From positions 1-22,156 of IMG/VR virus record IMGVR_UViG_3300009431_000149: DNA of 22,156 nt. One strand, written 5' to 3'. A program made the translations under genes and the position numbers. The DNA comes from a virus. The notes under the pieces are model-generated. The model saw only the letters and a program-made list of their open reading frames with translations. It searched no databases and was not told the DNA's origin. Each line of letters starts with the position of its first letter. Positions within the stretch are counted from its first letter, which is position 1. Of the stretch, positions 1 to 21,925 are shown piece after piece.

Positions 1-7
1 GTAACAA

Positions 8-35
8 CTTTGTGCCCTTTGTGTCCTTTGTGGCC
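8..35. repeat. Class A 9-nt repeat, right-arm orientation
   Basis: Three units of CTTTGTGNC/CTTTGTGGC lie ahead of the first gene. They are the reverse complement of the ACAAAG units seen at later junctions, so the left arm probably lies upstream of the window. The frame reading FVPFVSFVAKP through the array stays open until a TGA at 57-59, which overlaps the ATG at 56 as ATGA. Confidence 0.8.
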
Positions 36-55
36 AAGCCGTTGGAGGCAGCGAC

Positions 56-388
56 ATGATTTCCAGAGAGACGGCCGAGTCCAGGCGGATCAGGCAGGAC
101 ATACTGCGGACGATCTGCAACGCCTTCGCGGCGAATCCCGACGTCGGCCTGCTCGCAGACCAGATATATGGCGCGTTCGCCACATCCGCCATCCAGCACG
201 ATCGCGGCGAGATCGACGCCGAACTCGTCGACATGATCGACGACGGCCTGCTGGTGGTCGAAGACGCGCCCGGCTTCACCGGGCCGATGCCCAAGAAGAT
301 CTATAGATCCACGTCCAGAGGCCGCGACTTCCACCGGGCCGGATGCCCGTGGGGCAAGATCGACGAGTTCACCGGCGGGCAGAGATGA
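56..388 (+). CDS. Small phage protein, probably winged-helix
   Basis: This is a 110-residue soluble protein preceded by a good Shine-Dalgarno (TTGGAGG, 42-48) seven bases before the ATG. Two helical stretches (about residues 8-26 and 53-66) are followed by a GLLVVED strand and a YRSTSRGRDFHRAGCPW segment. This is the pattern of a winged-helix fold with a C-terminal T-x-x-G-R-D-F wing. Mu-like late clusters often have a small protein of this kind just before the small terminase, and that is its place here. The specific role is not known; DNA binding during packaging or late regulation is possible. The coding call is secure from spacing, Shine-Dalgarno and codon use; the fold is an inference. 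Confidence 0.75.
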   Translation: MISRETAESRRIRQDILRTICNAFAANPDVGLLADQIYGAFATSAIQHDRGEIDAELVDMIDDGLLVVEDAPGFTGPMPKKIYRSTSRGRDFHRAGCPWGKIDEFTGGQR

Positions 389-443
389 CGGCAATCACCA
401 TGGCCACAAAGTGCACAAAGGTCACGAAGGAAGGGCCCGTTTG
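389..443. repeat. Class A junction element with mini-ORF
   Basis: After the stop of the first gene comes GACGGCAATCACC, then ATGGCCACAAAG and two further ACAAAG/ACGAAG-type units (402-430). The same lead-in recurs at 16414, 20811 and 21664. The ATG at 400 opens a 14-codon frame, MATKCTKVTKEGPV, whose TGA (442-444) overlaps the next ATG as TGATG. The last unit supplies AAGGAAGG, the likely Shine-Dalgarno of the next gene. Confidence 0.85.
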
Positions 444-737
444 ATGAGTACGGACGGATACGACTTCCAGGTACCTGAATGCAGGGACTGCGGGCACAAG
501 CAGACACTCAAGGAGATTCTGTCCGGAGCGCGGATCGCAAGCGCGATGGGCGGACGCCTGAGATGCCCCAAGTGCGGATCGGCGGACCTGGTCCTGCATC
601 CCGCAGGTCCCGACGACGCTGTCCACGCCGGGACATACGCGCAGCAAGGCGCGGTGCGATCACTGCTATCCCGGTTCCTGGAGTCGTTAAGTGCCCAGTG
701 CCCAGTGCCCAGTGCCCCCGGAGGGCGAACATCGTGA
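444..737 (+). CDS. Zinc-ribbon protein
   Basis: This is a 97-residue protein with two CxxC knuckles, C13-C16 (CRDCG) and C41-C44 (CPKCG). The spacing is typical of a rubredoxin-like zinc ribbon; residues 20-38 between them look helical. The start at 444 is chosen over the upstream in-frame ATG at 411 because that one lies inside the repeat, while 444 has AAGGAAGG upstream and the TGATG overlap. The last dozen residues (about 83-92, SAQCPVPSAP) are encoded by a GTGCCCA heptamer array and are probably not part of the fold. The stop overlaps the GTG of the next gene as GTGA, implying coupled translation. Such proteins in terminase clusters may bind DNA or protein partners; the exact role is unknown. 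Confidence 0.7.
   Translation: MSTDGYDFQVPECRDCGHKQTLKEILSGARIASAMGGRLRCPKCGSADLVLHPAGPDDAVHAGTYAQQGAVRSLLSRFLESLSAQCPVPSAPGGRTS
691..717. repeat. Heptamer array GTGCCCA
   Basis: There are just under four tandem copies of GTGCCCA inside the 3' end of the zinc-ribbon gene, immediately upstream of CGGAGGG (719-725), the Shine-Dalgarno for the GTG start at 734. Because seven is not a multiple of three, every frame through the array yields the same cyclic heptapeptide (S-A-Q-C-P-V-P). Confidence 0.9.
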
Positions 738-1372
738 GCCCCCGCGTCCGACACAGCGCGGCCTATCGGGAACTGGCGGTCAAGGCGTGCCGCGTCGCGG
801 CACTGCCCGGCGGGCACAGCGCCGAGTGTGCGGCCGAAGATCCCGAGGCCTGCGACGTGCGCAACGGACTGTGGGCCGAATACGAGGCGAGACTGAGGGA
901 CACGCAGACATATACGATCGACGAGATCGTGCTGTGGCTCAAGTCGCACGACGTGCACGTCGGCAGGACGTCGGTACACAGGGACCGCAAGGCGCTGCTG
1001 GCCGCCGAGCGGTCGATCGTCCTGGCCGCCGAGAAGGCCAAGCGGATCTGCGACCTGATCGGCACGGACAACGAGGCCGACCTGATGCGGGGCGGGCGGA
1101 TCGCCATCGCACAGTTGCTGTTCGAGGTCATCACCGATCTCGGCCCCGAGGCCCTGGCCGGGATGACGCCGACACAGATCATTAAGTTAATGAACACGGG
1201 CACGCAGATCGGAAAGGTCCACGCCGAGACGGAGCTTTTGAATATCAAGCTGGACGAGATGAAAACGGCGTTTGACGACGCGGTCGCGGGCGCGAAGAAG
1301 AAGGCGAAAACGTCAGACGGGTCGCTATCGGCCGAGCAGATAGCACAGGTCAGAGCGGCGGTTTTTGGTTAG
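734..1372 (+). CDS. Terminase small subunit, Mu gp27 / DUF3486-like
   Basis: This is a 212-residue, mainly helical protein. Residues about 60-90 (IDEIVLWLKSHDVHVGRTSVHRDRKAL) match the DUF3486/Mu gp27 pattern: a helix-turn-helix in which a short acidic helix is followed by a recognition helix of the S-x-H-R type. Small terminases bind the phage DNA and recruit the large ATPase/nuclease subunit. A second helical block (150-190) fits oligomerisation. The GTG start at 734 has CGGAGGG eight bases upstream and overlaps the preceding stop (GTGA); the frame is open further up but with no comparable signal. The family call rests on the motif and on the position directly before a gp28-like large terminase. 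The TAG stop forms the first bases of the next repeat. Confidence 0.75.
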   Translation: MSPRVRHSAAYRELAVKACRVAALPGGHSAECAAEDPEACDVRNGLWAEYEARLRDTQTYTIDEIVLWLKSHDVHVGRTSVHRDRKALLAAERSIVLAAEKAKRICDLIGTDNEADLMRGGRIAIAQLLFEVITDLGPEALAGMTPTQIIKLMNTGTQIGKVHAETELLNIKLDEMKTAFDDAVAGAKKKAKTSDGSLSAEQIAQVRAAVFG

Positions 1373-1470
1373 CAACAGAGGTAGCAGAGGCGGCAGAGGA
1401 AACCGAACGGAATGGTTGAGGCACAACAAAACGAAGCGCCGTCCTCCGCTTCCTCCGCTACCTCCGTTGC
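1371..1470. repeat. Class B inverted repeat holding the terminase start
   Basis: The left arm (1371-1402) is made of GCAACAGAGG, TAGCAGAGG and CGGCAGAGG units. The right arm (1442-1470) is the inverted TCCTCCGCT, TCCTCCGCT, ACCTCCGTTGC. The two arms can pair. The loop contains the ATG at 1412, and the last left unit gives AGAGGAAA (1395-1402) as Shine-Dalgarno. The left-arm frame ATEVAEAAEE ends in a TGA (1417-1419) just inside the terminase gene. Confidence 0.9.
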
Positions 1471-2872: not shown

Positions 2873-2879
2873 TGGATTG

Positions 2880-2978
2880 GCAACAGAGGTAGCAGAGGCA
2901 GCAGAGGAAGACATAACGCATGGATGCGAGACAACAAGACAAAAGGACATCCTCCGCTTCCTCCGCTACCTCTGTTGC
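2880..2978. repeat. Class B inverted repeat holding the portal start
   Basis: The left arm is 2880-2910 (GCAACAGAGG, TAGCAGAGG, CAGCAGAGG), the right arm 2950-2978. The loop carries the ATG at 2920 with AGAGGAAG (2903-2910) as Shine-Dalgarno, the same spacing as at the terminase. The loop sequence (GAGACAACAA...) is also related to the loops at 1403-1441 and 19094-19131. Confidence 0.9.
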
Positions 2979-5484
2979 TACAGCCGCCGCCGCGCTCGCC
3001 GAAATGGCCGACCGCACAGCCCCCGCCGCCGACATCGCCGAAAAAGACACGCTGTCCCAGTACGCTCGGATGTTCCTCAGTGGCCTGGACACCCTCGGCG
3101 GCCAGTCGCTGGGCGGGCCGTCCGAGCCCTACAACGAGCACGTCTGGACGCACGCCTGCATCTTCGCACTGCACTCCAACGCCGCACGCGTGCCGATACG
3201 GCTGTCGCGCGGCGAGCCTGCAGGGACCAGCCGAGTCTGGGGCCAGAAACACATCAGGGCCGGCCTGCACCGCAGGAGGGAATTGTTATCAAGGCGCCTG
3301 GGCCCCAATGAAAAAGCCGCAGTATATAAGGCCCATGAAGGCGAGATCGTAGAGACCGGCGAGCTGCACGCGCTGCTCGAGCGCCCCAACGCCGAGCAGA
3401 CCTGGCCGCAGTTCGTTACCGAGACCGTCTGCCTGATGTACACCTGCGGGTCGGTTCACTGGCTGCTGCTGGACATGGTCGGCCGCCGGCCGCGTGAGAT
3501 CATTGCGGTACCGGGCCACAAGTCCACGGCCGTCGTCGACAAGTCCGGCATGGTCGCTCGCCTCGTCGGCTGGCAGATACGAGACCCGCACGGAACGCCG
3601 CGCACCGTGACGCTCGACGAGTGCATCACGTTCTCCCTCTACAATCCGCGCGACCGCAATCGCGGCCTGGCGCCCAGAGAGCCGGCGTCGCTGGCCATCG
3701 CGTCCGACTACAACGCCTCTATCTACAACGCCGCGATGTTCCATAACTCCTGCGAGCCCGGCGGGCTGCTCGAGACGGAAGCCCCGTACAACGAAGAGCA
3801 GGACTCCCAGATGTGGGCGAAGTGGCAGCAGCGGCACGGCGGGCCGTCGAACGCCCGCAAACTGGCGATCCTCTGGGGCGGGCTCAAGTACAAGCAGATG
3901 GCCAACTCGCTGACGGAAATGGTTTACCCCGAAGGTAAACGCCTTTCGCGCGAAGAGGTCTGTGCAGTGTTCCGCGTACCGGCATCGGTGGCCGGGTTCG
4001 TGGGCGTAACGGGCGACTCGACCGCACTTGTCGGCGCCGAGCTGCAGCGGTTCTGGCAGGATACGATGGCGCCGCTTGTCGGCCGGATCGCCGAGGGGAT
4101 CGACGTCCACCTGGCCCCGCGATTCGAGGGCAGCCTCGAGGCGTGGGCCGACGTCGAGGACGTCCCGGTCTACCAGGAGATGAGGCTGGCGAGGCTCGAC
4201 GCGGCCGACAAGCTGTTTGCCAAGGGCGTGCCGATGAGCGACGTCGACGCCATGCTCGACCTGGGTTTGCCGCAGCGCCCGTGGCATGATGTCGGCTTCT
4301 TGCCGATGAACCTCGTGCCCGCCCAGGAGGCGGCCGAGGGAAATGTGGTTGAGCCGGTGGATGAGAATCCTCCGGAGGACTCGGACGAGATCGGGCAGAG
4401 CGGGTTTAGCAACAGAGGTAGCGGAGGAAGCGGAGGAAACCAAGACCAGGATGGGGTTAAACCAGAGACGTCGCCGCCCTCCGCTTCCTCTGCTACCTCC
4501 GTTGCCAATACCAAAGCCTCCGAGGCCGGCAAAAAACGCATCTGGAAAAGCTGGATCACATCCTGGTCGCCGCTGGCCAAGAGATTCCGCGGCATGCTCC
4601 GCACGCACTATTCACGGCAGGAAGAACAGATCCTCAAACTCCTGCGGAGGGCAGTGAGCAATGAGCAATTAACAATGAGCAAGGCCGATGAATCGGCCAT
4701 CAACAGCATCTTATTCCAGGTGTTCGGCAAGCCTGACTCCAAGAAAAAATTCAGAGGCCGCATCAAGGCGTTTATGGCCGACGCTTCTAAATTAGGTATC
4801 CGCCAGGCACTGGTCGAGGCGGGTCTCGAAGGCGAGCAGCTCGCCGCCGCACTCAAGGAGTTGATGTCGTCGGGCGCCATCACTTCGGCGATGGCCTCCG
4901 ACTCGGTGCGGATCTCGACGCTCGTGGACAACAAGACGCGGCAACATCTCAAACGGACGCTGATGGAAGGGATCGACGACGGCGAGGGCATACGCAAACT
5001 GACTAGCCGCGTGCAGGAGATCATGGGCTCGTCGCGCCGGTCGGCAATGGTCACGGCACGCAACGCCGTCGGCCAATCGCTGAGCCGTGCCCGGCACGCC
5101 GGGCACAAGAAGGCGGGCATGACTCACAAGACATGGCTGCACTCGCGCGGGCCGGGCGAACGCCGCGAGGCGCACGTCGCGGCCGAGTCGCGATACGCGG
5201 GCGCCAACGCGATCCCGCTCGACGAGCCGTTCGTCATCAACGGCATCCCGCTGATGTACCCCCGCGACTTCGCATCCGGCAGCCCGGCAGAGACGGTCAA
5301 CTGCCAGTGTCTGCAGCTCGCCGCTCGCAGGCGCAAGGGTGCCGAGGTACCGGCCTCAGAGATCATTGAGAGTTACGACAACGGCATAGGCTTTGCCACA
5401 GAGGGCACAAAGGACACAGAGGACGGCGAGGCGCTTTGTTTAACGGCGGACGGCACGTCCGCCCCAGGAGATTCCAATGCCTGA
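2920..5484 (+). CDS. Portal protein fused to MuF head-morphogenesis domain
   Basis: This is an 854-residue fusion. Residues about 45-470 are an HK97-type portal: YNEHVWTHACIFALHSN, the W-x-x-L clip region, then YNPRDRNRGLAPREPASLAI, LTEM, and VPASVAGFVG before the long helix. The portal is the dodecameric DNA gate at the capsid vertex. Residues about 540-805 are a MuF (Mu gp30-like, PF04233-type) domain with a helical lead, TARNAVGQSLSRAR, KTWLHSRGPGERREAH and the diagnostic NCQC (794-797). Portal and MuF are normally separate neighbouring genes. The linker (about 497-530) is encoded by a class B repeat, residues 579-587 by AATGAGC heptamers, and residues 825-849 by class A and C elements. 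The N-terminal 20 residues are also repeat-coded. The gene ends eight bases inside the protease gene. Confidence 0.9.
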   Translation: MDARQQDKRTSSASSATSVATAAAALAEMADRTAPAADIAEKDTLSQYARMFLSGLDTLGGQSLGGPSEPYNEHVWTHACIFALHSNAARVPIRLSRGEPAGTSRVWGQKHIRAGLHRRRELLSRRLGPNEKAAVYKAHEGEIVETGELHALLERPNAEQTWPQFVTETVCLMYTCGSVHWLLLDMVGRRPREIIAVPGHKSTAVVDKSGMVARLVGWQIRDPHGTPRTVTLDECITFSLYNPRDRNRGLAPREPASLAIASDYNASIYNAAMFHNSCEPGGLLETEAPYNEEQDSQMWAKWQQRHGGPSNARKLAILWGGLKYKQMANSLTEMVYPEGKRLSREEVCAVFRVPASVAGFVGVTGDSTALVGAELQRFWQDTMAPLVGRIAEGIDVHLAPRFEGSLEAWADVEDVPVYQEMRLARLDAADKLFAKGVPMSDVDAMLDLGLPQRPWHDVGFLPMNLVPAQEAAEGNVVEPVDENPPEDSDEIGQSGFSNRGSGGSGGNQDQDGVKPETSPPSASSATSVANTKASEAGKKRIWKSWITSWSPLAKRFRGMLRTHYSRQEEQILKLLRRAVSNEQLTMSKADESAINSILFQVFGKPDSKKKFRGRIKAFMADASKLGIRQALVEAGLEGEQLAAALKELMSSGAITSAMASDSVRISTLVDNKTRQHLKRTLMEGIDDGEGIRKLTSRVQEIMGSSRRSAMVTARNAVGQSLSRARHAGHKKAGMTHKTWLHSRGPGERREAHVAAESRYAGANAIPLDEPFVINGIPLMYPRDFASGSPAETVNCQCLQLAARRRKGAEVPASEIIESYDNGIGFATEGTKDTEDGEALCLTADGTSAPGDSNA
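4409..4505. repeat. Class B repeat forming the portal-MuF linker
   Basis: The left arm, 4409-4440, is read in frame as SNRGSGGSGGN; the right arm, 4478-4505, is read as PSASSATSVA. The loop has TGGGGTTAAACCAG. The TTTAGC at the left edge (4405-4410) resembles the TAG stop plus CAACAGAGG arrangement at 1370, 9596 and 19061, but here the TAG is out of frame. Confidence 0.9.
4654..4681. repeat. AATGAGC heptamer remnant inside the MuF region
   Basis: GTGAGCAATGAGCAATTAAC followed by AATGAGC is an imperfect array of the same heptamer as 10306-10327. A perfect array has TGA in every frame; the deviations here keep the frame open (VSNEQLTMSK). Confidence 0.75.
5395..5463. repeat. Class A plus class C elements at the portal-MuF C-terminus
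   Basis: Class A units (5395-5422, ACAGAGG/ACAAAGG) are read in frame as ATEGTKDTED. The class C hairpin 5445-5463 (GGCGGACG, loop GCA, CGTCCGCC) is read as ADGTSA. CAGGAG (5465-5470) right after the hairpin is the Shine-Dalgarno of the protease gene. Confidence 0.9.
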
Positions 5485-6448
5485 CGGTAAGACAAAGATC
5501 ACAGGGCTCGAAAGCGGCGTCATTGAACGCTCGTCAAAAGACGCTCAAGGGCGGTTTATCAAGGGTTTTTCAAAGGCCGTCGACGTAGAGAAACGCACGA
5601 TCACGGGCGTCGCGTCTACGATCAATCTCGACAGGCACGGCGACGTGATCCTGCCGTCGGCAGTCGCCGCTCACGCTGAGGCGTTCATGGCGTCAAACGC
5701 CCCGTTCCTGTCTGCCCACACTCACCGCACGTCCGAAGGCGCGCCGTCGCAAATTGGGTGGGTGACGGACATGAAGATCGACGCCGAGAAGGTCCTGTGC
5801 GAGTTCAAGTTCGCGCGCACGGCGGCCGCCGAGGAGTGGTGGCGGATCGCCTCGGACCGCGACGGCAAGGGCATCGCGTTCTCGATCGGTTTCCTGCCGA
5901 TCCGCTACATCTACGGGACCGTCAAGGACATCATCAAGGAGTTCCCCGAACTCGGCGGCCCGCTGGCCGGCATGAAGGACGACGACAAATTGTGGGTCCT
6001 GACCGAGATCGAGCTGATCGAGATCTCGGCGGTCCCCTGCCCGGCGAACCGCGAATCGCTGCAGGAACTGGCGCAGAAATTCTTCGACGGCGACGACACG
6101 GAGGCGAAGGCCCCCAAGCGAGGCGACGGCGACCACCGGATGCAGAAGCTCGTCGACGCCCTCACTGAATCGATCGGGGACGCCCTCGGCGAAAAGCTCC
6201 TGGAGGAACTCGGAACGCAACTGGAAGTCCACCGGCGGTGCATCGCCGAGCAGTTGGACGATGCGATAAGCGAAATGAAATCGATCACCACCGGAGACGC
6301 CCTCGGAGGCGGCTGCCACGCGGAAAACCTTGACTGCGATGACAGCGATCCCGACGACGGCGCCGGTGATGAGGATCAGGGCGACAATGCCGTAGCGGAC
6401 GCCTGCGACGGCCTATTGGCGACCGCAGGCGGATGTACTCCTGTTTAA
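5477..6448 (+). CDS. HK97-family prohead protease (S78-like)
   Basis: This is a 323-residue capsid maturation protease, cleaving scaffold parts of the head proteins after assembly. The protease core spans about residues 10-200: RTITGVASTINLDRHGDVI, the catalytic His in FLSAHTH (H81 or H83), the catalytic Ser in GIAFSIGF (S136), and EISAVPCPANRES (182-194), the usual third-residue region. Residues 215-270 look helical and coiled-coil-like. The C-terminus (285-323) is acidic and Cys-containing and has no counterpart I recognise. The ATG at 5477 has CAGGAG six bases upstream and overlaps the portal-MuF stop by eight bases, so the two are probably coupled. The TAA stop lies in the TTTAAC lead of the next class C element. 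Confidence 0.92.
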   Translation: MPDGKTKITGLESGVIERSSKDAQGRFIKGFSKAVDVEKRTITGVASTINLDRHGDVILPSAVAAHAEAFMASNAPFLSAHTHRTSEGAPSQIGWVTDMKIDAEKVLCEFKFARTAAAEEWWRIASDRDGKGIAFSIGFLPIRYIYGTVKDIIKEFPELGGPLAGMKDDDKLWVLTEIELIEISAVPCPANRESLQELAQKFFDGDDTEAKAPKRGDGDHRMQKLVDALTESIGDALGEKLLEELGTQLEVHRRCIAEQLDDAISEMKSITTGDALGGGCHAENLDCDDSDPDDGAGDEDQGDNAVADACDGLLATAGGCTPV

Positions 6449-6468
6449 CGGCGGACGGTACGTCCGCC
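6442..6468. repeat. Class C hairpin before the capsid gene
   Basis: TTTAAC precedes the hairpin GGCGGACG (6450-6457), loop GTA, CGTCCGCC (6461-6468). The TAA of the protease gene is inside TTTAAC. The frame FNGGRYVRPSTRTLT runs from the element to TGA 6489-6491, overlapping the capsid ATG at 6488 as ATGA. Confidence 0.92.
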
Positions 6469-6487
6469 CCAGCACAAGGACACTCAC

Positions 6488-7840
6488 ATGACACAGATAA
6501 TGAAACTGTTTGCGGCCCTGGTGGCCATGACGTCCATGCCCGCATCAAAGCGCGACGACGGTCACGAGGCAAAAATCGCCGCAAAGCTCAGGGAGGTCGA
6601 GGATGCACTCAAGGCCTTCGAGGCCGACGGCGACCTGGCGGCCGACAAGGTCAAGGAACTCCAGTCACAGGCCGACCAGCTCCGCAAGGACCTGGACGCC
6701 TCGATCGAGGAGACCAGGCGAATCAAGGCATCCGGCCTGGGCGTCGCCGGCGGGCGGATAGTCGTGCCCGGCGGCAAGGCCGCCCGCCTGGAGATGCTCG
6801 CCGACAGGCGGTGCTTCCTGGACAATGAGACGGCCAAGCGGTTCGGCGCATACGGCGCGTACCTGCACCTGAAGATCAACAACAAGATGGAGCTCTGCCC
6901 GTCCTACGTCAAGGACATCGCCGAGGACGTGTTCAAGTGCCAGAAAGACCTCGACCCGAACGTCGACGCTTCCGGCGGCTATATCATCGCCGACGAGTTC
7001 CGCCCCGAACTGATACGCAACGTCGAGGCCACGGGCATCTTTTTCCCGCAGTGCCGCCGGATCCCCCTGACGACGCTCGGCACGATGAGCATACCCAAGC
7101 GGACGGGCGGCCTTACGGCCTACTGGACGGCAGCCGGGGCGCAGGGCACGCGGTCGACGCCGACACTGGACCTGATCCAGATCCAGCCCGAGAAACTCAT
7201 GGCACTGGTCGCCATGCCCAACGAGTTCCTGCGATCGAGCCTCCTGACCGACCTGGGCAACTGGCTGGGCATCGAGCTGGTCTACTCGCTGAAGTACGCA
7301 CTCGACAACGCCATCATCAACGGCGACGGGTCGGCCGATTACGGCGGAATCACGGGCATTATGCAGTCGGCCAATATCTCCGAGGTCGCCGCCGCCGCCG
7401 GCAACACGACGCTGGCGACGCTGGAGGGTTTCGATATCTCCAACGCGATCGCGGGGATCACCAAAGATTACGGGTTCCGCGATCCGCAATGGGGCATGAG
7501 CCTCTCGGTCCTAATGAAGCTCCGCGCGATCCAGGACGACAACGGCCTGCCGCTGTACGAGCGGGCGAGCGGCCAGATGCCGGCGAACATCGACGGCTAC
7601 CCGTTCACAACCGGCAACACGATGACCGCCGCCGGCAGCGTCTCGGCCGACACGGCCTACGCGTGGTTCGGAGACCTGGGCGTCTCGCACATCGTCGGGA
7701 TGCTGCACGACATCAATATCTCGGCCTCGGAGCACGTAGTGTTCGAGTCCGACATGCACATGATGCGGGCCATCATGCACGTGGACATCCAGGAAGCCGA
7801 GACCAACGCGATCGTCAGGGCCGCGACGGCGGCGTCTTAA
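6488..7840 (+). CDS. Major capsid protein, HK97 fold
   Basis: This is a 450-residue shell subunit. Residues 25-80 form a charged, heptad-like helical region, the scaffolding delta domain expected to be removed by the upstream protease (cleavage somewhere about residues 80-110 is inferred from the family). The capsid body runs from about residue 155 (DPNVDASGGYIIADEFRPELIRN) through IPLTTLGTMSIPKRTGG, WTAAGAQGTRSTPTLDLIQIQPEKLMALVAMPNEFL, ALDNAIINGDGSADYGGITGI and YPFTTGNTM to the C-terminus; these are hallmark Phage_capsid (PF05065-type) segments. The gene order protease-capsid is canonical. The start at 6488 has AAGGA (6476-6480) upstream; an ATG at 6500 is an alternative. Confidence 0.95.
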   Translation: MTQIMKLFAALVAMTSMPASKRDDGHEAKIAAKLREVEDALKAFEADGDLAADKVKELQSQADQLRKDLDASIEETRRIKASGLGVAGGRIVVPGGKAARLEMLADRRCFLDNETAKRFGAYGAYLHLKINNKMELCPSYVKDIAEDVFKCQKDLDPNVDASGGYIIADEFRPELIRNVEATGIFFPQCRRIPLTTLGTMSIPKRTGGLTAYWTAAGAQGTRSTPTLDLIQIQPEKLMALVAMPNEFLRSSLLTDLGNWLGIELVYSLKYALDNAIINGDGSADYGGITGIMQSANISEVAAAAGNTTLATLEGFDISNAIAGITKDYGFRDPQWGMSLSVLMKLRAIQDDNGLPLYERASGQMPANIDGYPFTTGNTMTAAGSVSADTAYAWFGDLGVSHIVGMLHDINISASEHVVFESDMHMMRAIMHVDIQEAETNAIVRAATAAS

Positions 7841-7929
7841 CGGCAACGGCCTGGCCACAAAGGGCACAAAGAGCACAGAGAACACCAAGGACAATGAGGT
7901 CCTGTTTAACGGCGGACGGCACGTCCGCC
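7841..7929. repeat. Class A plus class C junction element
   Basis: After the capsid stop comes CGGCAACGGCC, then class A units (7853-7890) and a class C hairpin (7911-7929). A frame from CTG 7851 reads LATKGTKSTENTK and continues as LFNGGRHVRP through the hairpin to TGA 7947-7949, overlapping ATG 7946 as ATGA. AAGGAG (7933-7938) follows the hairpin. Confidence 0.9.
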
Positions 7930-8752: not shown

Positions 8753-8842
8753 CAGCAACGGCCCTGCCACAAAGGGCACAAAGAGCACAAAGGACGACGA
8801 GGACGACGAGGTCTTTGTTTAACGGCGGACGGCACGTCCGCC
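8753..8842. repeat. Class A plus class C junction element
   Basis: CAGCAACGGCC leads into class A units (8766-8793), a duplicated GACGACGAG stretch, and a class C hairpin (8824-8842) directly joined to AGGAG, the Shine-Dalgarno of the next gene. The ATG seen elsewhere is CTG here with one base missing, and the hairpin frame FNGGRHVRQEND runs in frame into the next gene. Confidence 0.9.
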
Positions 8843-9093: not shown

Positions 9094-9224
9094 TCCGGCG
9101 CTACGCAAACAAGCGGGTCGTACCGGCCGCCCACAAGCAGCAGATGGGCGTCGCAGACAAAGGCATTAAACCGCAGAGGACGCAGAGATCTCAGAGGGCG
9201 GTACGGCCACAACAAGGCAAGTAA
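9090..9224 (+). CDS. Possible 44-residue basic peptide
   Basis: A short ORF starts at the ATGA overlap with the preceding gene. The product (begins MIRRYANKRVVPAAHKQQMG) is strongly basic and low in complexity. Its second half (about residues 28-38) is encoded by CGCAGAGGA/CGCAGAGAT/CTCAGAGGG units, yet another 9-nt repeat. The overlap and the head-module context favour translation, but the repeat-derived tail and small size leave it uncertain. Confidence 0.4.
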   Translation: MIRRYANKRVVPAAHKQQMGVADKGIKPQRTQRSQRAVRPQQGK

Positions 9225-9370
9225 GCCGAGGCTCGCTAGGAAGTCTCGGAACCAACCATCCTCGGCGGCGGAGGCCAGGGATTGCCCCGCCGCCGGCGGA
9301 TGGTTTAACGGCGGACGGCACGTCCGCCTCGATGTGACGTCACGTATGTGACGTCGCATAAGGAGCACCC
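9225..9370. other. Gene-free stretch with hairpins, class C repeat and palindrome
   Basis: CCGAG/CTCGG (about 9226-9249) can pair. AACCATCC (9254-9261) with GGATGGTT (9298-9305), plus inner GGCGGCGG/CCGCCGCC, form a long stem. A class C hairpin follows at 9310-9328. Then a 14-base direct repeat starting ATGTGACGTC occurs at 9332 and 9346 and includes the perfect palindrome GTGACGTCAC (9334-9343). TAAGGAG (9358-9364) is the Shine-Dalgarno of the next gene. The function of the structures is not evident. Confidence 0.7.
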
Positions 9371-9598
9371 ATGCCGCAGGCAAAACTGACAATCGAAGAG
9401 ATCCGCCAGAAGTGCAAGGGCAAGATCACCAAGCGCGAAGCCGACGGCGCCGAGATGGCGGCCGTCAAGGTCATCTGCCCGATGTGCTTCTGCCACGGCC
9501 ACAAACACCCGCGCGGCGATGTCTTCGCGATGGAGATCTCGCTGGTGCCGGCACACGTCGCCGGCGGGCAGGTGGAGATCGTCACGGGCAAAAAATAG
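9371..9598 (+). CDS. Small Cys/His-rich protein, possible zinc knuckle
   Basis: This is a 75-residue protein with a helical N-terminus (LTIEEIRQKCKGKITKREADGAEMAAV) and a compact metal-ligand cluster, CPMCFCHGHKHPRG (about residues 37-50), followed by beta-like sequence. The cluster suggests zinc binding; no known family is recognised. Start ATG 9371 has TAAGGAG six bases upstream. The TAG stop is the first part of the class B repeat that follows. By position it lies between the capsid genes and the connector and might assist head completion. Confidence 0.65.
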   Translation: MPQAKLTIEEIRQKCKGKITKREADGAEMAAVKVICPMCFCHGHKHPRGDVFAMEISLVPAHVAGGQVEIVTGKK

Positions 9599-9691
9599 CA
9601 ACAGAGGCAGCAGAGTAAGCAGAGGACGGCCTGAGACTGGGTTAGAACCAAGGCCGTCGCCTTCCTCCGCTTCCTCCGCTCCCTCCGTTGC
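9598..9691. repeat. Class B inverted repeat before the connector
   Basis: The left arm is 9598-9625 and the right arm 9661-9691. The loop has a small inner stem (GACGGC/GCCGTC with GGTTAGAACC between). One frame is open through the whole element, NRGSRVSRG...SSASSAPSVADT, as in the portal linker and at 17801. The start codon lies downstream of the right arm here, not in the loop. Confidence 0.9.
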
Positions 9692-10305: not shown

Positions 10306-10353
10306 CAATGAGCAATGAGCAATGAGCGTTTAACGGCGGACGGCACGTCCGCC
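10306..10353. repeat. AATGAGC heptamers plus class C hairpin
   Basis: Three copies of AATGAGC (10306-10327) run directly into TTTAAC and the hairpin 10335-10353. The frame FNGGRHVRPEQP ends at TGA 10365-10367, overlapping ATG 10364 as ATGA. No other Shine-Dalgarno is obvious for the next gene. Confidence 0.9.
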
Positions 10354-10363: not shown

Positions 10364-10969
10364 ATGATCGTTACTATACAACTTGACCCGCAGTCCAAGG
10401 CACTGATTGCCCGGCACAACCGCGCCGCAGATCGCGGCGCCGGCGTCATGGCCTCTGCGCTCGAGTCGGCGGCCGTCGCGGGCTCCGAGGACATTCGCGG
10501 CCAACTGGTCAGGGGCGACCTGGGCCTGGAGATGCGGAACCCCGCGTCCGGCCTGGCGGCGTCGGTACTCGGCTGGATGATCGACACCGACACGCCTCTG
10601 GCGGCGATGGGCGTGCCGGCGGATTCGCCGGCGGCCGACTATGCGAGGATCCTCAACGTCGGCGGGACGATTTTTCCCAAGACGGCCAGGGCACTGGCCG
10701 TGCCGATCTCGGACGAGGCGAAGCGCTACGAATCGCCCCGCGACATGGACGGGCTCGATCTGATACCGCGAAAGGGCAAGCCGCCGCTGCTGATCAGGAA
10801 GCTGACCAAGCGAGGCGATGTTCGCGGCTTCGAGCTGCACTGGGTCTTGGTCCCTTCGGTCCGGATCCCGGCGTTCAGGTGGCTCGACACGGGCGCCCAG
10901 GCGGCCCTGCCTGTGATGCAGGACGCCTTCGGCGACGTGGTGGATACATGGACGGATGAATGGAATTAA
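10364..10969 (+). CDS. Neck / tail-completion protein, virion morphogenesis-like
   Basis: This is a 201-residue protein between connector and tail terminator, the slot of HK97 gp10-like or Mu virion-morphogenesis-like tail-completion proteins. Features are an amphipathic N-terminal helix region with Ala-rich spacing (15-50), then YARILNVGGTIFPKTARALAVPISDEAKR (about 93-121), which resembles the G-x-x-I/P...A-L-x-(I/V)-P block of these families. It also has FRWLDTGAQAALPVMQDAFGDVVDTW, a C-terminal helix. No good Shine-Dalgarno precedes the ATG; translation may depend on the overlapping element frame. Family assignment is moderate. Confidence 0.65.
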   Translation: MIVTIQLDPQSKALIARHNRAADRGAGVMASALESAAVAGSEDIRGQLVRGDLGLEMRNPASGLAASVLGWMIDTDTPLAAMGVPADSPAADYARILNVGGTIFPKTARALAVPISDEAKRYESPRDMDGLDLIPRKGKPPLLIRKLTKRGDVRGFELHWVLVPSVRIPAFRWLDTGAQAALPVMQDAFGDVVDTWTDEWN

Positions 10970-11014
10970 CGGCGGCGAAACCGCTAGCGGTTTAACAAGC
11001 GAAGCGCCGTCGTT
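10968..11014. repeat. Palindromic junction element
   Basis: AAACCGCTAGCGGTTT (10978-10993) is a perfect 16-base palindrome, bracketed by ACGGCGGCG and GCGCCGTCGT, which can extend the stem. This is a different family from class C but also begins with AACGGCGG after the stop. Confidence 0.75.
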
Positions 11015-11443: not shown

Positions 11444-11562
11444 GGGCACTAGGCACTGGGCACTAGGCATTGGGAAACGACATGACGACAACAACAACGG
11501 CACGGCGCGGGCGGGCGGTTCTGGTTTTGACCAGTGCCCAATGCCCCGCGCCCAGTGCCCAG
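11444..11562. repeat. Inverted heptamer arrays GGGCACTAG / CCAGTGCCC
   Basis: The left arm is 11444-11474 (GGCACTA/GGCACTG heptamers) and the right arm 11531-11562 (CCAGTGCCC...GCGCCCAGTGCCC), able to pair. The loop has a short ORF from ATG 11482 (MTTTTTARRG...SAQEI, 29 codons) that ends at TGA 11569-11571, three bases before the next ATG. AGGAG (11561-11565) is that gene's Shine-Dalgarno. Confidence 0.85.
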
Positions 11563-12010: not shown

Positions 12011-12083
12011 AACGGCAGGCGGGAGGCTGTAGGCCTGAGGCTGTAGCCGTCCCTCCAGTCTCCGGCCTCCGGTCTCATGCCTG
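12011..12083. repeat. AGGCTGT-type heptamer element
   Basis: After the stop, GGCAGGCGGGAGGCTGT, AGGCCTG, AGGCTGT lead into CCTCCAGTCTCCGGCCTCCGG and CATGCCTG. Heptamer periodicity and CAGGC/GCCTG ends suggest an imperfect inverted array. It fills the whole gap before the tape-measure-like gene. Confidence 0.75.
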
Positions 12084-13716: not shown

Positions 13717-13806
13717 ATTGCGGATTGACGATTGCGGATTGCGGATTGAACGGCAGCGGCGGCGGCAAGCCGTTAGCTGAGAGCTGATAGCTGAGAACTG
13801 ATAGCT
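13717..13806. repeat. GCGGATT and AGCTGAT heptamer arrays
   Basis: ATTGCGGATTGACGATTGCGG plus two more GCGGATT units (13717-13749) are followed, after a short GC spacer, by AGCTGAG/AGCTGAT/AACTGAT units (13773-13806) ending right at the next ATG. Both units contain TGA in some register and neither array is read as protein. Confidence 0.9.
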
Positions 13807-14247: not shown

Positions 14248-14350
14248 CGACATGGCCACAAAGGACACAAAGAGCACAAAGAACACCAAGCAAGACGCGG
14301 CCTTTGGTTTTAGGCCGTTACCCCTCTATGACCTTTGTGCCCTTTGTGGC
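14248..14350. repeat. Complete class A inverted repeat with inner hairpin
   Basis: The left arm is 14254-14290 (ACAAAG units) and the right arm 14333-14350 (CTTTGTGCCCTTTGTGGC). Between them GCGGCCT/AGGCCGT form an inner stem around TTGGTTTT. From ATG 14252 a 39-codon frame (begins MATKDTKSTKNTK) crosses the whole element and ends at TGA 14369-14371, overlapping the next start. A second frame from ATG 14328 (MTFVPFVARLCLYGD) ends at 14375. Confidence 0.9.
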
Positions 14351-14364
14351 AAGGCTGTGTCTTT

Positions 14365-16413: not shown

Positions 16414-16450
16414 CGGCAATCACCATGGCCACAAAGAGCACCAAGAACGG
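16414..16450. repeat. Class A junction element with mini-ORF
   Basis: The lead ACGGCAATCACC and ATGGCCACAAAGAGCACC are nearly identical to 389-417. ATG 16425 opens MATKSTKNGERSCLAA, whose TGA 16473-16475 overlaps the methyltransferase ATG 16472 as ATGA. GAGAGGAG (about 16451-16458) lies inside this frame. Confidence 0.88.
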
Positions 16451-16471
16451 CGAGAGGAGTTGTTTGGCGGC

Positions 16472-17224
16472 ATGAACCTCCACCCCGGCATTGAGGCCGT
16501 ACTGGCCGGCGACTCAGACGGCTGCATCATCCACGGCGACTGCCGGGAAGTGATGGCCGAAATGCCCGCCGGGTGTGTTGATTGCGTGGTGACCGACCCG
16601 CCGTACGGAATCAACATCGCCAAGAACGGTACGATAGGCGTTGCAGGATTGGTGCCTCTAACCGATTACGGCTGCCAGGAATGGGACGCAGAACCGCCAT
16701 CTGTTGAGACCCTAAACCGATTGAGGATAATCGGCAGACTCACCATCCTCTTCGGGGCAAATTACTATTCTGACCGCCTGCCTGCGAGCAAATGCTGGAT
16801 AGCGTGGAACAAGGGGATTCCGAAAGGTTACACGAAGGCGCAAGTTGAATTCGCCTGGACGAACAGCAGCACATATTCACGGCACTATCATGTCCTCTGG
16901 CACGGGATGATACGAGATAGTGGCGAATATCGATACCACCCAACACAGAAGCCGACCCGGCTGATGACTTTGATCGTCCAGGACTTTACAAGCCCCGGCG
17001 ACATCATCCTCGACCCGTTCAGTGGTTCCGGCACGACGTGCGTCGCGGCCAAGAAACTCGGGCGACGGTGGATCGGGATTGAGATTGATGAGGCGTACTG
17101 CCGCAAGGCCCGGGCGCGTGTGAGGGACACCGAAAAACCACTATTCGACCCCGCTGCCGTTGCCGTTGGGTCTCTCACTCCTAACCTCTTACCTCTAACC
17201 AACCCTTTGGAGGCCGCCGAATGA
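16472..17224 (+). CDS. DNA methyltransferase, beta class (N6A or N4C)
   Basis: This is a 250-residue S-adenosylmethionine-dependent DNA amino-methyltransferase. The catalytic motif IV DPPYGI (42-47) precedes the AdoMet motif DPFSGSGTT (181-189), the permuted order of the beta class. HPTQKP (156-161) and IGIEID (201-206) are further family signatures. DPPY favours adenine N6. It has no fused recognition or nuclease domain and no restriction partner nearby, so it is probably an orphan enzyme masking phage DNA or marking host DNA. The central part (about 16600-16960) is visibly less GC-rich than its neighbours, which suggests recent acquisition. C-terminal residues about 234-245 are encoded by CTAACCT-type heptamers. 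The stop overlaps ATG 17221. Confidence 0.93.
   Translation: MNLHPGIEAVLAGDSDGCIIHGDCREVMAEMPAGCVDCVVTDPPYGINIAKNGTIGVAGLVPLTDYGCQEWDAEPPSVETLNRLRIIGRLTILFGANYYSDRLPASKCWIAWNKGIPKGYTKAQVEFAWTNSSTYSRHYHVLWHGMIRDSGEYRYHPTQKPTRLMTLIVQDFTSPGDIILDPFSGSGTTCVAAKKLGRRWIGIEIDEAYCRKARARVRDTEKPLFDPAAVAVGSLTPNLLPLTNPLEAAE
17174..17201. repeat. CTAACCT-type heptamers in the methyltransferase 3' end
   Basis: CTCACTC, CTAACCT, CTTACCT and CTAACCA run in tandem, read in frame as SLTPNLLPLTN. Degeneration avoids the TAA a perfect array would give. TTGGAGG (17207-17213) follows as Shine-Dalgarno for ATG 17221. Confidence 0.75.
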
Positions 17225-17283: not shown

Positions 17284-17792
17284 CCTACTCCATCACCGCA
17301 AAATCCCGAGTTCGCCTGACGTGGCCCGCCCAGCACCAGGTCCCGCCGGGCGGGTACTATCATCTGTTTCATCGCGTCTCGGGCGGGTCGTGGGACTGGG
17401 GCGTCGCCTCACGGATCAACGTCGATCCGATAGAGGCATGGCCGCAGGGCCGGCATCCGGGCTTCGGCTACGGGCCGTTCGGCCAAAGGGCGTTCGGCTA
17501 CCCGGCGTTCGGCGCCCCGTTCGGATACGGGCCGTTCGGGTCCGGGCCGTTCGGTTTCGGGACTTTTTCACTGGAGTACATCACCGACTGGTACGACGAC
17601 GGCGATCACGAGTTCGCCGCGATCGGATACGACAAGGCCGGCAACGCAGTGACGCCGGCGACGGCCGTCGGCACGGTGACACTGGCCGGTGAGCCGATAC
17701 CGCCGTCGGATCTGTCGGCAGACAGCTACGACAGCGGAACCGACACACTGGCGCTTTCGTGGGCACTGTCGCCCGACGATCAGGATGCATGA
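17280..17792 (+). CDS. Fn3-like tail protein with Gly-Phe repeats
   Basis: This is a 170-residue protein starting at GTG 17280 with AGAGGAGGG six bases upstream. Residues 5-50 (SRVRLTWPAQHQV, YYHLFHRVSGG) and 97-135 (SLEYITDWYDDGDHEFAAIGYDKAGN) look like the two halves of one fibronectin-III domain. Between them residues 60-97 hold repeated FGYGPFG, AFGYPAFG, GPFG and GFG, a flexible aromatic-Gly insertion. A second Fn3-like start (PPSDLSADSYDSGTDTLALSWALSPDD, 141-167) stops after about 30 residues, just before a class B repeat, so the gene may be truncated. It is probably part of the tail tip or fibre. The name is by pattern only. Confidence 0.65.
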   Translation: MTYSITAKSRVRLTWPAQHQVPPGGYYHLFHRVSGGSWDWGVASRINVDPIEAWPQGRHPGFGYGPFGQRAFGYPAFGAPFGYGPFGSGPFGFGTFSLEYITDWYDDGDHEFAAIGYDKAGNAVTPATAVGTVTLAGEPIPPSDLSADSYDSGTDTLALSWALSPDDQDA

Positions 17793-17800
17793 TATGGATT

Positions 17801-17900
17801 GCAACAGAGGTAGCAGAGTGAGCAGAGGACGACAAAGGCACGAGGCATTGGTTTTAACCAAGTCGGCGCCTTCCTCCGCTACCTCCGCTACCTCCGTTGC
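17801..17900. repeat. Class B inverted repeat before the fibre gene
   Basis: The left arm is 17801-17829 and the right arm 17870-17900, with a loop containing TTGGTTTTAACCAA. An ATG at 17789 (overlapping the previous stop) opens MIWIATEVAE, ending at TGA 17819-17821. GTG 17818 overlaps it (GTGA) and opens a 32-codon frame through the rest of the element (SAPSSATSATSVANTQE) to TGA 17914-17916. The fibre ATG follows at 17921. Confidence 0.9.
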
Positions 17901-17920
17901 TAACACACAGGAGTGAGCCG

Positions 17921-19063
17921 ATGGCCTCAACACGCAAAGTCCCGACCGACGCAACACTCAACGCCTTGAGCGCGTCGGAAGATTCGACCTCCGGATTCCC
18001 GTTCATCGAGACGGGAGAAGAGCCGTTCTATACCAACTTCTATAAAATGATGTGGTTCCTCCTGCAGGTGGCGATGCTCTCGGATGAGCTCCGCGTCTAC
18101 AAGGACACAGGCGCCGAACTCGAGTTCGGCGTCAATGCCGGGCGGTGTGTGATCGCCGGGTACGAGGTCAACTACGCGGGCGCCACCGGCCAGTCGCTCA
18201 CGGACGATGCGGACAACTACATCTTTCTCGACGAGGATGGCACGCTGACTGTCAACACGACGGGCTTTCCCGCGGGAACCTGCTACCTGCCCCTGGCCGC
18301 GATCGCCACGGGCAGTGAGTCGGCGCTGGGGACGTCCGGTTTGTATGACTTCGCCGACATAACAGACCATCGAGGCGAGGCGGTTTTTGAATCACTCAAT
18401 CCCTCGGCCGGGCGGTACGAGTATGAGGAAGATTTCAACGCGGCGGCCGGCGAGACCCTTCCGGCCCCGTGGGCGTCGGACACGCAGAACTCCGCGACCG
18501 CCGATTACGTCGACGACGAACTTACCGGCCTGTTTCGCCTGGCGTTGACCAACGCCGATGAGGCACAGGCCGCTCAACTGACGTGGGACAACAACAGGAC
18601 GATCGACACGGACAAGGATCCTGTCGTCGAGTTCGATGTCAAGATCGACGGCGTGGCCGCCCTGACGTCCGTCGAACAGATCGCCATCGGCCTGGTCGCC
18701 GATCACACCAACCCCGAAGATGCACTGGACAACATCGACCACTCCTGCTGGTTCCTCATCAAGGCCGGCGGCCTGGACATCTACTGCGAATCGGACGACG
18801 GCACGACGGACACTGACGATACCGACAGCGGCATCAACATAGTAGACGACACACTGACGACGTTCCGAATCGATCTCTCTGACCTGACGGACGTCAAGTT
18901 CTACGTCAACGGCGTGGCGGCAAGCGGCTCGTATGACATGACGCAGTCGGCAGGCCAGGCGATGCAGCCTATCGTCTGCGCGCAGCGTGCCGACAACAGC
19001 CAAACGGAAGTCGGATTCCAGGTCGAGCTGGATAGGTTCAAGGTTTTGACGAAACGGCAATAG
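17921..19063 (+). CDS. Tail fibre / adhesin with lectin-like C-terminus
   Basis: This is a 380-residue protein starting at ATG 17921 with AGGAG (17910-17914) upstream. Residues 1-60 are helical (NFYKMMWFLLQVAMLSDELRVY). Residues 65-160 are like phage fibre base segments (VNAGRCVIAGYEVNYAGATGQSLTDDADNYIFLDEDG, LPLAAIAT). Residues about 165-380 form a beta sandwich (DDELTGLFRLALTNAD, VVEFDVKIDG, IAIGLVAD, WFLIKAGGLDIYCES, TFRIDLSDLTDVKFYVNGV), the pattern of a LamG/concanavalin-like carbohydrate-binding module. It is likely a receptor-binding or virion-surface protein. The TAG stop is the start of a class B repeat. Confidence 0.7.
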   Translation: MASTRKVPTDATLNALSASEDSTSGFPFIETGEEPFYTNFYKMMWFLLQVAMLSDELRVYKDTGAELEFGVNAGRCVIAGYEVNYAGATGQSLTDDADNYIFLDEDGTLTVNTTGFPAGTCYLPLAAIATGSESALGTSGLYDFADITDHRGEAVFESLNPSAGRYEYEEDFNAAAGETLPAPWASDTQNSATADYVDDELTGLFRLALTNADEAQAAQLTWDNNRTIDTDKDPVVEFDVKIDGVAALTSVEQIAIGLVADHTNPEDALDNIDHSCWFLIKAGGLDIYCESDDGTTDTDDTDSGINIVDDTLTTFRIDLSDLTDVKFYVNGVAASGSYDMTQSAGQAMQPIVCAQRADNSQTEVGFQVELDRFKVLTKRQ

Positions 19064-19160
19064 CAACAGAGGTAGCTGAGGCAGCAGAGGAAACCAAAGG
19101 CATGATTGAGAGACAACAAAACGAAGCGCCCTCCTCCGCTTCCTCCGCTCCCTCCGTTGC
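19063..19160. repeat. Class B inverted repeat holding the next start
   Basis: The left arm is 19063-19093 and the right arm 19132-19160. The loop contains ATG 19102 and AACAAAACGAAGCGCCC, nearly identical to the terminase loop. AGAGGAAA (19086-19093) is the Shine-Dalgarno. Confidence 0.92.
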
Positions 19161-19572
19161 CAAGCCGACGGTGTTTCGCGGGACGTCCGTGGCGATACTG
19201 GAGGCCAGGGCGCGTGACGGCGATACGATCGAGGATTCTACGCTCACCGCGATCGAGAGAGGCACGCCGATTCTGCGCGGCCGCAAGGGCCTGACGTTCC
19301 GCCGGTGCAAGTTCCACCGGACACTTCCGCCGGCGGGCTCCAGGCTGATCGACTGCAGGTCCGTCGAGACCGTTCTGCCGGATCCCGTCGAGGCCGAAGA
19401 GATGCACGTCGTGCCTCGGTCCGAACTCATCGAGATCGTCGAGGCCGCCAGGGACGGGCGGAAAACGGACGTCACGGAATTCTGTCGCCGCCAGGGCCTC
19501 GACGCAGCGGCCGTCGTGGCCAGTGCCCAACCCCCAGTGCCCAGTGCCCGCGAACCGGAGGTTCGCCCATGA
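19102..19572 (+). CDS. Small tail-region protein with repeat-coded ends
   Basis: This is a 156-residue protein of unknown family. Residues 1-20 come from the class B repeat and closely match the terminase N-terminus (xQQNEAPSSASSA). Residues about 138-152 (VASAQPPVPSAR) come from a GTGCCCA heptamer array. The remaining core has a beta part with solenoid-like steps (GDTIEDSTLTAIERGTPILRGRKGLTFRRCKF) and a helical part (RSELIEIVEAARDGRKTDVTEFCRRQG). The location among fibre genes suggests an assembly or adaptor role. The stop overlaps ATG 19569 as ATGA. Confidence 0.6.
   Translation: MIERQQNEAPSSASSAPSVAKPTVFRGTSVAILEARARDGDTIEDSTLTAIERGTPILRGRKGLTFRRCKFHRTLPPAGSRLIDCRSVETVLPDPVEAEEMHVVPRSELIEIVEAARDGRKTDVTEFCRRQGLDAAAVVASAQPPVPSAREPEVRP
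19519..19550. repeat. GTGCCCA heptamer array
   Basis: CCAGTGCCCAACCCCCAGTGCCC followed by AGTGCCC lies in frame at the 3' end of the preceding gene. CGGAGG (19556-19561) directly after it is the Shine-Dalgarno for ATG 19569, the same layout as at 691-734. Confidence 0.88.
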
Positions 19573-20810: not shown

Positions 20811-20940
20811 GCAACGACAATCACCATGGCCACAAAGGGCACAAAGATCACCAAGAACGAGAGTTTAAGGGCGGACAGTACGTCCGCCCGGCAGCACATG
20901 AGCGTTCGTGAGCAGCTATGAGCGTTCGTGAGTAGCTATG
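20811..20940. repeat. Class A, class C and TATGAGCG arrays in series
   Basis: Class A units (20828-20858) with the ACAATCACCATGG lead are followed by a variant hairpin (GGCGGAC...GTCCGCC, 20870-20888) and AGCTATGAGCGTTCGTGAG repeats (20898-20945). ATG 20826 opens a frame (MATKGTKITKN...) that closes at TGA 20919-20921, overlapping ATG 20918. That one reads MSVRE and stops at 20933-20935, two bases before ATG 20938. Confidence 0.88.
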
Positions 20941-21663
20941 AGCAGTTCAGTATACATAACGGCAGGCCTGGCCGTCCAGAACACGCGGACACCCGAGCCG
21001 TCTGCCATGGCGGCATTCCTGTCCGCCGGCCTGCAGGCTGACGATCTGCCCCACGCCGGATACGAGATCTGTATGGGCACGGGCCCGGTCGAGGCCAACA
21101 TCGACGAGGATAATCCCGTGGCACTTGTCCCGCAGGGCATCAATAGCCTCGATCTGGTCGACGTCGCCGACAACCTGGGCATCGAGTCCGACACCGACTA
21201 TCTCCTGGCCGTGCGTGCAGTCTCCGAGTCGGACGTCGACTCGGAACTGTCCAACGCCCAGAGGATCCGCATCGAATCCGACACGCTCCTGGGCCAGAAG
21301 CCCAACCCGCTTTCATCCGCCACGGCAGAGGCGGTCTCAGGCGGAGAGGTCGCCGTCCGCGTCCAGTACAACACGATAGACGAGCCGGCGGCCGCGACGC
21401 AGGTGAAGGTCGCAAGGTACGACCTCACGACAAAGGCTTACGACTTTGCGTCGCCCGAGGCGACGTTGACCGTCTCGGGGTCCGGCAACATCAAACTGTC
21501 CGACACCATCGGCCCGTACACGCACGGCGACACGGTAAAGTTGGCCGCACGCGCCGTGACGGCCGCCGGCGTGGCGGGCGACGCGACGGCGATCACGCCC
21601 GTGGTCGCGGACACCACAGGACCGGCCGTCGTCGATTCGATGACGGCGACGCAATACGACTGA
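20938..21663 (+). CDS. Fn3-like tail protein
   Basis: This is a 241-residue protein with two beta domains. Residues about 1-115 (AGYEICMGTGPV, TDYLLAVRAVSESDVDSELSNAQRIRI) and about 120-225 (GGEVAVRVQYNTID, TQVKVARYDLTTKAYDF, DTVKLAARAVTAAGVAGDATAITPVVADTTGP) each follow the fibronectin-III pattern with a terminal (V/A)RAV strand. Such domains line phage tail tips and fibres and aid weak surface binding. ATG 20938 is the last of three ATGs in the TATGAGCG array; there is no strong Shine-Dalgarno. Confidence 0.7.
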   Translation: MSSSVYITAGLAVQNTRTPEPSAMAAFLSAGLQADDLPHAGYEICMGTGPVEANIDEDNPVALVPQGINSLDLVDVADNLGIESDTDYLLAVRAVSESDVDSELSNAQRIRIESDTLLGQKPNPLSSATAEAVSGGEVAVRVQYNTIDEPAAATQVKVARYDLTTKAYDFASPEATLTVSGSGNIKLSDTIGPYTHGDTVKLAARAVTAAGVAGDATAITPVVADTTGPAVVDSMTATQYD

Positions 21664-21753
21664 TAACGGCAATCACCATGGCCACAAAGGGCACAGAGGA
21701 CACGAAGGACGACAGAGGCGCGACTTTGTTTAACGGCGGACGGCACGTCCGCC
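21664..21753. repeat. Class A plus class C junction element with mini-ORF
   Basis: ACGGCAATCACC leads into class A units (21680-21708) and the hairpin (21735-21753). ATG 21678 opens a 29-codon frame, MATKGTEDTKDDRG... then LFNGGRHVRPGDL. It ends at TGA 21765-21767, overlapping ATG 21764 as ATGA. Confidence 0.9.
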
Positions 21754-21763
21754 CCGGTGACCT

Positions 21764-21925
21764 ATGAGCAAGCACCAAAAGGCGCTCGTCACAATCTACT
21801 TCCTTGCGGCCGTCGGCAATGCCGTCCTGGCCTGCTGGTACATACCCTCTACGTTTGGCGGCGCGTGCCTAATGGCGGCGGCGGTCTCAGTGATCGACGG
21901 GCTGGAGAAGCTTTGGAATGAGTGA
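21764..21925 (+). CDS. Small two-segment membrane protein, holin-like
   Basis: This is a 53-residue protein with a basic N-terminus (MSKHQK), a hydrophobic segment 7-27 (ALVTIYFLAAVGNAVLACWYI), a short turn (PSTFGG) and a second, weaker hydrophobic segment 33-45. A charged tail (DGLEKLWNE) follows. Two short membrane helices with both ends charged fit a small class II-type holin or another phage membrane peptide, and the position among tail fibre genes is common for lysis genes. No endolysin is visible in the window, so the role is tentative. It starts by ATGA overlap with the element frame and ends eight bases inside the next gene. Confidence 0.6.
   Translation: MSKHQKALVTIYFLAAVGNAVLACWYIPSTFGGACLMAAAVSVIDGLEKLWNE

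Follow-up and report, generated by a model that had tools for sequence, protein, structure and literature searches.

The late genes of a tailed phage are separated by short repetitive elements drawn from a small recurring set. What are these elements, where do they come from, and why do they lie so close to translation starts? Most work on dispersed intergenic repeats concerns chromosomes; in this case a compact phage operon is packed with several families that are unrelated to each other. The window, meaning the whole analysed stretch of 22,156 bp (IMG/VR virus record IMGVR_UViG_3300009431_000149), is a late module with PHROG matches to the terminase large subunit, a portal/head-morphogenesis fusion, a protease, the major capsid protein and a head-tail adaptor. 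The gene set comprises 25 same-strand genes found by a codon-usage gene caller and 2 small ORFs added by eye, giving 27. Searches of phage records with MCP and terL returned only relatives below 30% identity. Among viral contigs, scanning with MCP or portal recovered L006, L026 and one distant contig.

Elements at the gene junctions

The initial annotation had placed elements at most gene junctions, and this is borne out, with 23 of the 26 junctions occupied (Table 1). The three element-free junctions are start/stop overlaps (-3, -4 and -8 nt), and every non-overlapping junction in the window carries an element. The elements take up 74% of the non-coding bases (1,259/1,695) and a further 521 coding bases. 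Arrays at the junctions were detected by Tandem Repeats Finder together with an inverted-repeat search. At a score of at least 38, the window contains 8 period-7 and 16 period-9 arrays, the latter including a few ordinary coding repeats, while each of 20 dinucleotide shuffles contains none of either period. For a phage, such a dense set of genuine elements is unusual. They are also found in coding sequence: an entire B hairpin lies in frame within the portal/head-morphogenesis fusion, and several arrays form the tails of proteins. The arrays, hairpins and junction placement first described are thereby confirmed, with corrections concerning coding copies, the position of the Shine-Dalgarno (SD) sequence and the classes.

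Table 1 Elements of the window and the occupants of the corresponding slots in the related phage L026.
Element	Position	Strand	Context	Slot shared with L026	Window / L026 class
Class A 3' arm (CTTTGTGnn array)	8..34	+	5' arm lost at contig end; start 56 next		
Class A single array	403..431	+	Upstream of start 444		
Class D heptamers (AGTGCCC x4)	690..717	+	In coding tail; start 734 next		
Class B hairpin	1372..1470	+	Loop holds terL start codon (1412); 3' arm encodes SSASSATSVA		
Class B hairpin	2880..2978	+	Loop holds portal fusion start codon (2920); inverted-repeat search	terL/portal junction	B / A
Class B hairpin	4406..4508	+	In frame, portal/head-morphogenesis fusion	Portal linker	B / A array
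Class D heptamers	4651..4682	+	Within portal/head-morphogenesis fusion coding region		
A array + C palindrome	5395..5463	+	Coding tail of portal fusion; start 5477 next	Portal/protease junction	A+C / E
Class C	6443..6468	+	Provides TAA stop of protease gene	Protease/capsid junction	C / none (31 nt)
A array + C	7854..7929	+		Capsid/7946 junction	A+C / E+C'
A array + C	8766..8842	+		8752/8854 junction	A+C / E+C-like
A-like array (CGCAGAG units)	9170..9200	+	Coding tail, small ORF 9091-9225	Tail of 9091 ORF	A / A array
GC-rich hairpin + C + hairpin	9257..9358	+	Upstream of start 9371	9225/9371 junction	Hairpins+C / hairpins
Class B hairpin	9598..9691	+		9598/9709 junction	B / E
D heptamers + C	10306..10353	+		10305/10364 junction	D+C / F
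Class F palindrome (GCGAAACCGCTAGCGGTTTAACAAGCGAAGCGCCGT)	10969..11014	+		10969/11026 junction	F / F
Class D hairpin, inverted heptamer arms	11444..11562	+	Inverted-repeat search	11439/11575 junction	D / A+C'
Class D-like hairpin, arms inverted heptamer-type	12016..12078	+		12009/12096 junction	D / A
Two different heptamer arrays	13717..13806	+	Second directly adjoins start codon 13807	13712/13807 junction	D,D / none (15 nt)
Class A hairpin, complete	14255..14350	+	Inverted-repeat search	14247/14365 junction	A / E
Class A single array	16427..16450	+			
Class D heptamers	17181..17200	+	Coding tail of methyltransferase gene		
Class B hairpin, loop core TTGGTTTTAACCAAG	17801..17900	+			
Class B hairpin	19063..19160	+	Loop holds start codon 19102		
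Class D heptamers + small palindrome	19516..19566	+	Heptamers in coding tail; palindrome carries SD of 19569		
A array + C variant	20829..20888	+			
A array + C	21681..21753	+			

Architecture of the elements

Class A is a 9-nt array of CACAAAGnn units and class B a 9-nt array of GCAGAGGnn units. Complete copies of both are inverted pairs, with arms of 27-31 nt placed about 40 nt apart. Class E (GGATGAACA-type), found in L026, follows the same plan, and A, B and E constitute a single architecture of 9-nt arrays inverted around a loop. The two arms of any hairpin always belong to one class, and a TTGGTTTTAACC(AAG) core is common to the complete B loop of the window (17850) and the E loops of L026. 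Class D consists of heptamers, which can likewise be arranged as an inverted pair.

The 19-nt hairpin originally described as class C is real, but the conserved GTTTAAC in front of it had been missed; the full element is GTTTAAC followed by GGCGGACGGCACGTCCGCC. The palindrome GCGAAACCGCTAGCGGTTTAACAAGCGAAGCGCCGT forms a further class, F, absent from that description. Both C and F are short palindromes with their joint at GTTT(T)AAC, which is also where the composites A+C and D+C of the window and E+C' of L026 meet. In the window and in L026, GTTT(T)AAC is found within elements and nowhere else. Copies at different junctions of the window are 78-100% identical over stretches of 28-92 nt.

A separate small hairpin (GCYGARGCYCGCTAG...YTYRGC, then CCAACC) is located at 9225-9258 and recurs in L026 as the reverse complement of 7139-7172. 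Its stem is changed on both sides between the two phages, yet kept. In the window it is the first of four back-to-back hairpins upstream of the 9371 start, and it is possibly a structured RNA, with no match in Rfam. An Rfam search gave chance matches only, under gathering scores.

Position relative to stops and starts

The distance from the element end to the next start has a median of 12 nt and is 10-21 nt at 17 of the 23 junctions, which is the room that an SD sequence needs. The upstream side is as tight, with a median of 4 nt from the stop to the element. An SD-like motif precedes 20 of the 25 starts. The SD had been described as lying at or just after the element; a position just after it holds for most junctions, the exceptions being 1412, 2920, 19102 and 13807. 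At the first three, the start codon is within the loop of a B hairpin and the left arm's final repeat serves as the SD, while 13807 is the only start that adjoins its array. In L026 the start of the portal gene is instead preceded by a complete A hairpin, indicating that in the window, where the start sits in a B loop, the hairpin has taken over the 5' end of the gene.

The close-to-start placement was thus right in outline, but it can arise from tolerance alone, since an element in a one-way operon persists only where ORFs, SD and start remain intact. The accompanying argument, that repeats expanding at random would not spare translation starts so regularly, is weak; such a survival filter can give the same pattern.

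Related phages carry different occupants

L026 (IMGVR 3300033064_002338) is syntenic with the window from the portal to the gene at 14365. Its proteins are 66-84% identical to those of the window over nearly all shared genes, and 54-64% for two. At most shared slots the class differs, and two L026 junctions are empty (Table 1). C is confined to the window and C' to L026 in this comparison, from which each most simply spread after the split of the lineages. F is nearly identical in the two phages, though their genes are about 74% identical. The pair is a natural comparison for the spread of repeats, their tolerance by compact genomes and the creation of starts, stops and protein tails.

In the more distant L175 (IMGVR 3300009431_001360), five of the late genes have homologues at 38-50% identity. 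Its junctions in the late module mostly overlap or measure 3-39 nt, and a few of them carry F, heptamer+F and E-type elements. The different occupants in L026 and the mostly bare junctions of L175 indicate that turnover is fast and that the elements are not needed for the module.

L006 is the same phage as the window (99.86% identity, gap-free), and none of the 15 differences between them is located in an element. About 10-12 of the 15 fall within 80 nt (13511-13586), near the end of that contig, and this cluster is possibly an assembly end artefact. In L026, an 87-nt coding tandem repeat of 4.8 copies (7503-7919) enlarges the homologue of window gene 7946-8752, which has no counterpart of it.

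Cellular copies of the element families

The elements had been proposed to be a phage system. This is not supported, as the families are cellular, though far denser in the window. A arrays, often as +/- pairs, are found in MAGs of Phycisphaerae, other Planctomycetota and Acidobacteriota, and C, D, E and F are likewise dispersed in Planctomycetota MAGs. Class B was looked for as a cellular family and not found. Of 392 Planctomycetota genomes sampled, 72 have A arrays, and controls with the reversed pattern stay near zero. The strict A triple occurs in just 25 stretches among 2.9 million viral contigs.

Two MAGs, G001 and G004, were used as cellular stand-ins for the host. G001 (Phycisphaerae) contains heptamers and E-type pairs; 49 A or heptamer clusters were detected in 681 kb of it, of which 46 are intergenic and 29 are heptamers (class D). 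Of the intergenic clusters that could be assigned, 29 are in co-directional, 7 in convergent and 1 in divergent gaps, a deficit in the last kind of gap (P 6e-5 counted by bases and 0.005 by gaps). G004 carries six copies of a C variant, GTTTAGC-GGCCGACGGCACGTCGGCC, sometimes directly after heptamers, in which the base changes in the two stem arms match, so that one stem pair is swapped. Variants of F are present in G004 and G005. The exact phage C was found in one of the 392 Planctomycetota genomes (G004, one copy); an extended class C pattern had no match in cellular genome contigs, where a relaxed A pattern did match.

With identical detectors, the spacing of elements averages 1.6 kb in the window, 2.3 kb in L026 and 13.9 kb in G001. 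The window is thus about nine times as dense (P 2e-9) as G001, the best cellular stand-in. About 61 kb of distant planctomycete prophages whose capsid protein is related contain no such arrays. It had been suggested that equal density at all host intergenic regions, with no position bias, would make the elements a host-wide feature. The outcome is mixed: the families are host-wide in the stand-ins, but density and start-side position differ.

In another cellular contig (G268:C1, L214-L217), copies of an A-type element lie within a long near-identical repeat found at dispersed sites (CTTATCCACATCTTTAAATAC-CACAAAG...), which may be a dispersed family that is still active.

Comparison with known repeats

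Most REPs lie in gaps between ORFs that run in one direction or converge, close to the upstream ORF's 3' end, and Planctomycetes are among the bacteria that have them (PMC3733652). A REPIN consists of two REPs in inverted orientation, separated by a spacer (PMC3116915). Known REP/REPIN palindromes carry GTAG or CGTC tags (PMC3116915, PMC3733652). The elements described here are similarly short palindromes, many of them inverted doublets with a spacer. They are intergenic, favour co-directional and convergent gaps near the upstream ORF 3' end, comprise several families per genome and have some copies inside ORFs. Unlike REP/REPIN, their arms are tandem 9-nt or 7-nt arrays, the phage and cellular elements inspected have no GTAG/CGTC stem foot (GTAG is seen inside B arms alone and CGTC inside the C stem alone), Y1 genes lack flanking repeats, and the density in the phage genome is very high. 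The elements are REP-like in plan and distribution, and we do not file them as REPs because the GTAG/CGTC foot and the RAYT flanks are absent. They resemble MITEs in being about 95-100 bp, with inverted ends, dispersed and sometimes in frame within genes, but no target-site duplication was seen and no cognate transposase was identified here. A text search with the array sequences matched no bacterial literature.

Tandem heptamers are the STRR type of repeat known from cyanobacteria. Class D is similar to these and to TAACTGA repeats, being tandem heptamers that are mostly intergenic and dispersed. TAACTGA direct repeats of cyanobacteria and Beggiatoaceae consist of one heptamer, mostly end at the start codon and have no SD, and BOGUAY repeats mostly replace the SD (PMC4679880). 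The class D array before 13807 also runs up to its start codon. In contrast, class D has many heptamer sequences, often paired in inverted orientation or attached to C or F, and the starts of the window retain an SD, with this one array alone adjoining its start.

Mobility was proposed from the outset. It is supported indirectly by occupant swaps at orthologous junctions whose slots and genes are kept, by the lineage restriction of C and C' and by cellular dispersal. No transposase has been identified, and the two L026 junctions without an element are too diverged to serve as a clean empty/occupied pair that would reveal a target-site duplication; between the near-identical L006 and window no such pair exists. 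Genomes with arrays more often have Y1 transposase genes (58/72 vs 187/320, P 4e-4, shared ancestry uncorrected), but in array-rich genomes just 1 of 15 Y1 genes lies within about 3 kb of an A array. The presence of Y1 genes correlates with arrays genome-wide alone, and no mobilising enzyme can be named.

Origin and possible roles of the elements

We consider it probable that the elements are cell-derived, REP/REPIN-like dispersed repeats that spread in the phage lineage and were kept where ORFs and ribosome sites remained intact. Their anatomy, their cellular families, the differing occupants and the dispensability in a relative are all observed. Cellular repeats of planctomycete type, as paired inverted arrays or short palindromes, would have entered the phage lineage, whose host would then be a planctomycete. 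The hairpins could form in single-stranded DNA or RNA, and copying within the genome, or recombination, may have spread the elements among the junctions of the one-way late operon, where array and hairpin would often be joined at GTTT(T)AAC. Junctions, inter-domain linkers and protein ends would be the sites that tolerate an element with no ORF destroyed, and the last 10-20 nt before a start would be kept because the SD is there. Occupants would be replaced fast. Where a hairpin overran the 5' end of a gene (terL, portal, 19102), the start codon and SD inside the element would have taken over. If so, this suggests that phages can ferry host-type repeats from cell to cell. Several results weigh against such spreading: the lack of a transposase, target-site duplication or near-identical empty/occupied pair, the single Y1 gene near an A array, and a class B that was not found as a cellular family. 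The exceptional density in this lineage, next to zero arrays in the distant prophages, could also reflect positive selection.

A regulatory role, or one as a seam for module exchange, is possible. As cis-regulatory intercistronic hairpins, the elements would insulate cistrons, stabilise or process late mRNA, or damp initiation and so set expression ratios. The presence of an element at every non-overlapping junction and the matched arm classes agree with this, as does folding: the stability of complete hairpins exceeds that of shuffles (the A, B and D hairpins before 9709, 11575, 14365 and 17921 have z -2.6 to -5.2), and prediction places the best SD of terL and of portal in a paired state (unpaired probability 0.07 and 0.01) with the start codon open in the B loop. 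However, many elements are single arrays, which mostly fold no better than shuffles, the same gene pairs have other classes or none in L026, and L175 runs five homologous genes with mostly bare junctions. The linker dinucleotides display no significant arm-to-arm covariation (P 0.12 and 0.40; 21 pairs), so pairing at those positions is not visibly selected. With mostly bare L175 junctions and no significant covariation, the early suggestion that the elements set expression ratios has no direct support, and we regard cis-regulation as unlikely.

A related and rather improbable possibility is that nearly every non-overlapping cistron boundary is a standard, swappable hairpin part, perhaps supplying stop, SD and start, and tuning late-gene output. 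The arm class would be exchanged while the loop joint and slot are kept, turning repeat DNA into a translation-boundary device.

Recombination seams, through which common junction elements would permit the exchange of late genes or cassettes between phages by homologous recombination, have in our estimate a slim chance. The similar copies at many junctions and the class switches of composites at GTTT(T)AAC would suit them, but gene order and similarity to L026 are fairly uniform: the elements changed and the genes did not. Local tandem slippage or chance repeats with no dispersal would fit the short, imperfect arrays, but this origin is refuted by the empty shuffles and by the recurrence of the same units at many loci, in inverted pairs and in unrelated genomes, and C and F are not tandem arrays.

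Other features of the window

The late module also includes a DNA-methyltransferase-like gene (16472-17224), whose translation has a DPPYG motif. A coding 15-nt repeat at 17463-17554 gives a GYGPFG-type stretch rich in glycine. Ahead of the 20938 gene, a 20-nt unit containing ATGAGC is present in 2.5 copies (20898-20948). It yields two tiny leader ORFs, the stop of the first overlapping the start of the second (ATGA).
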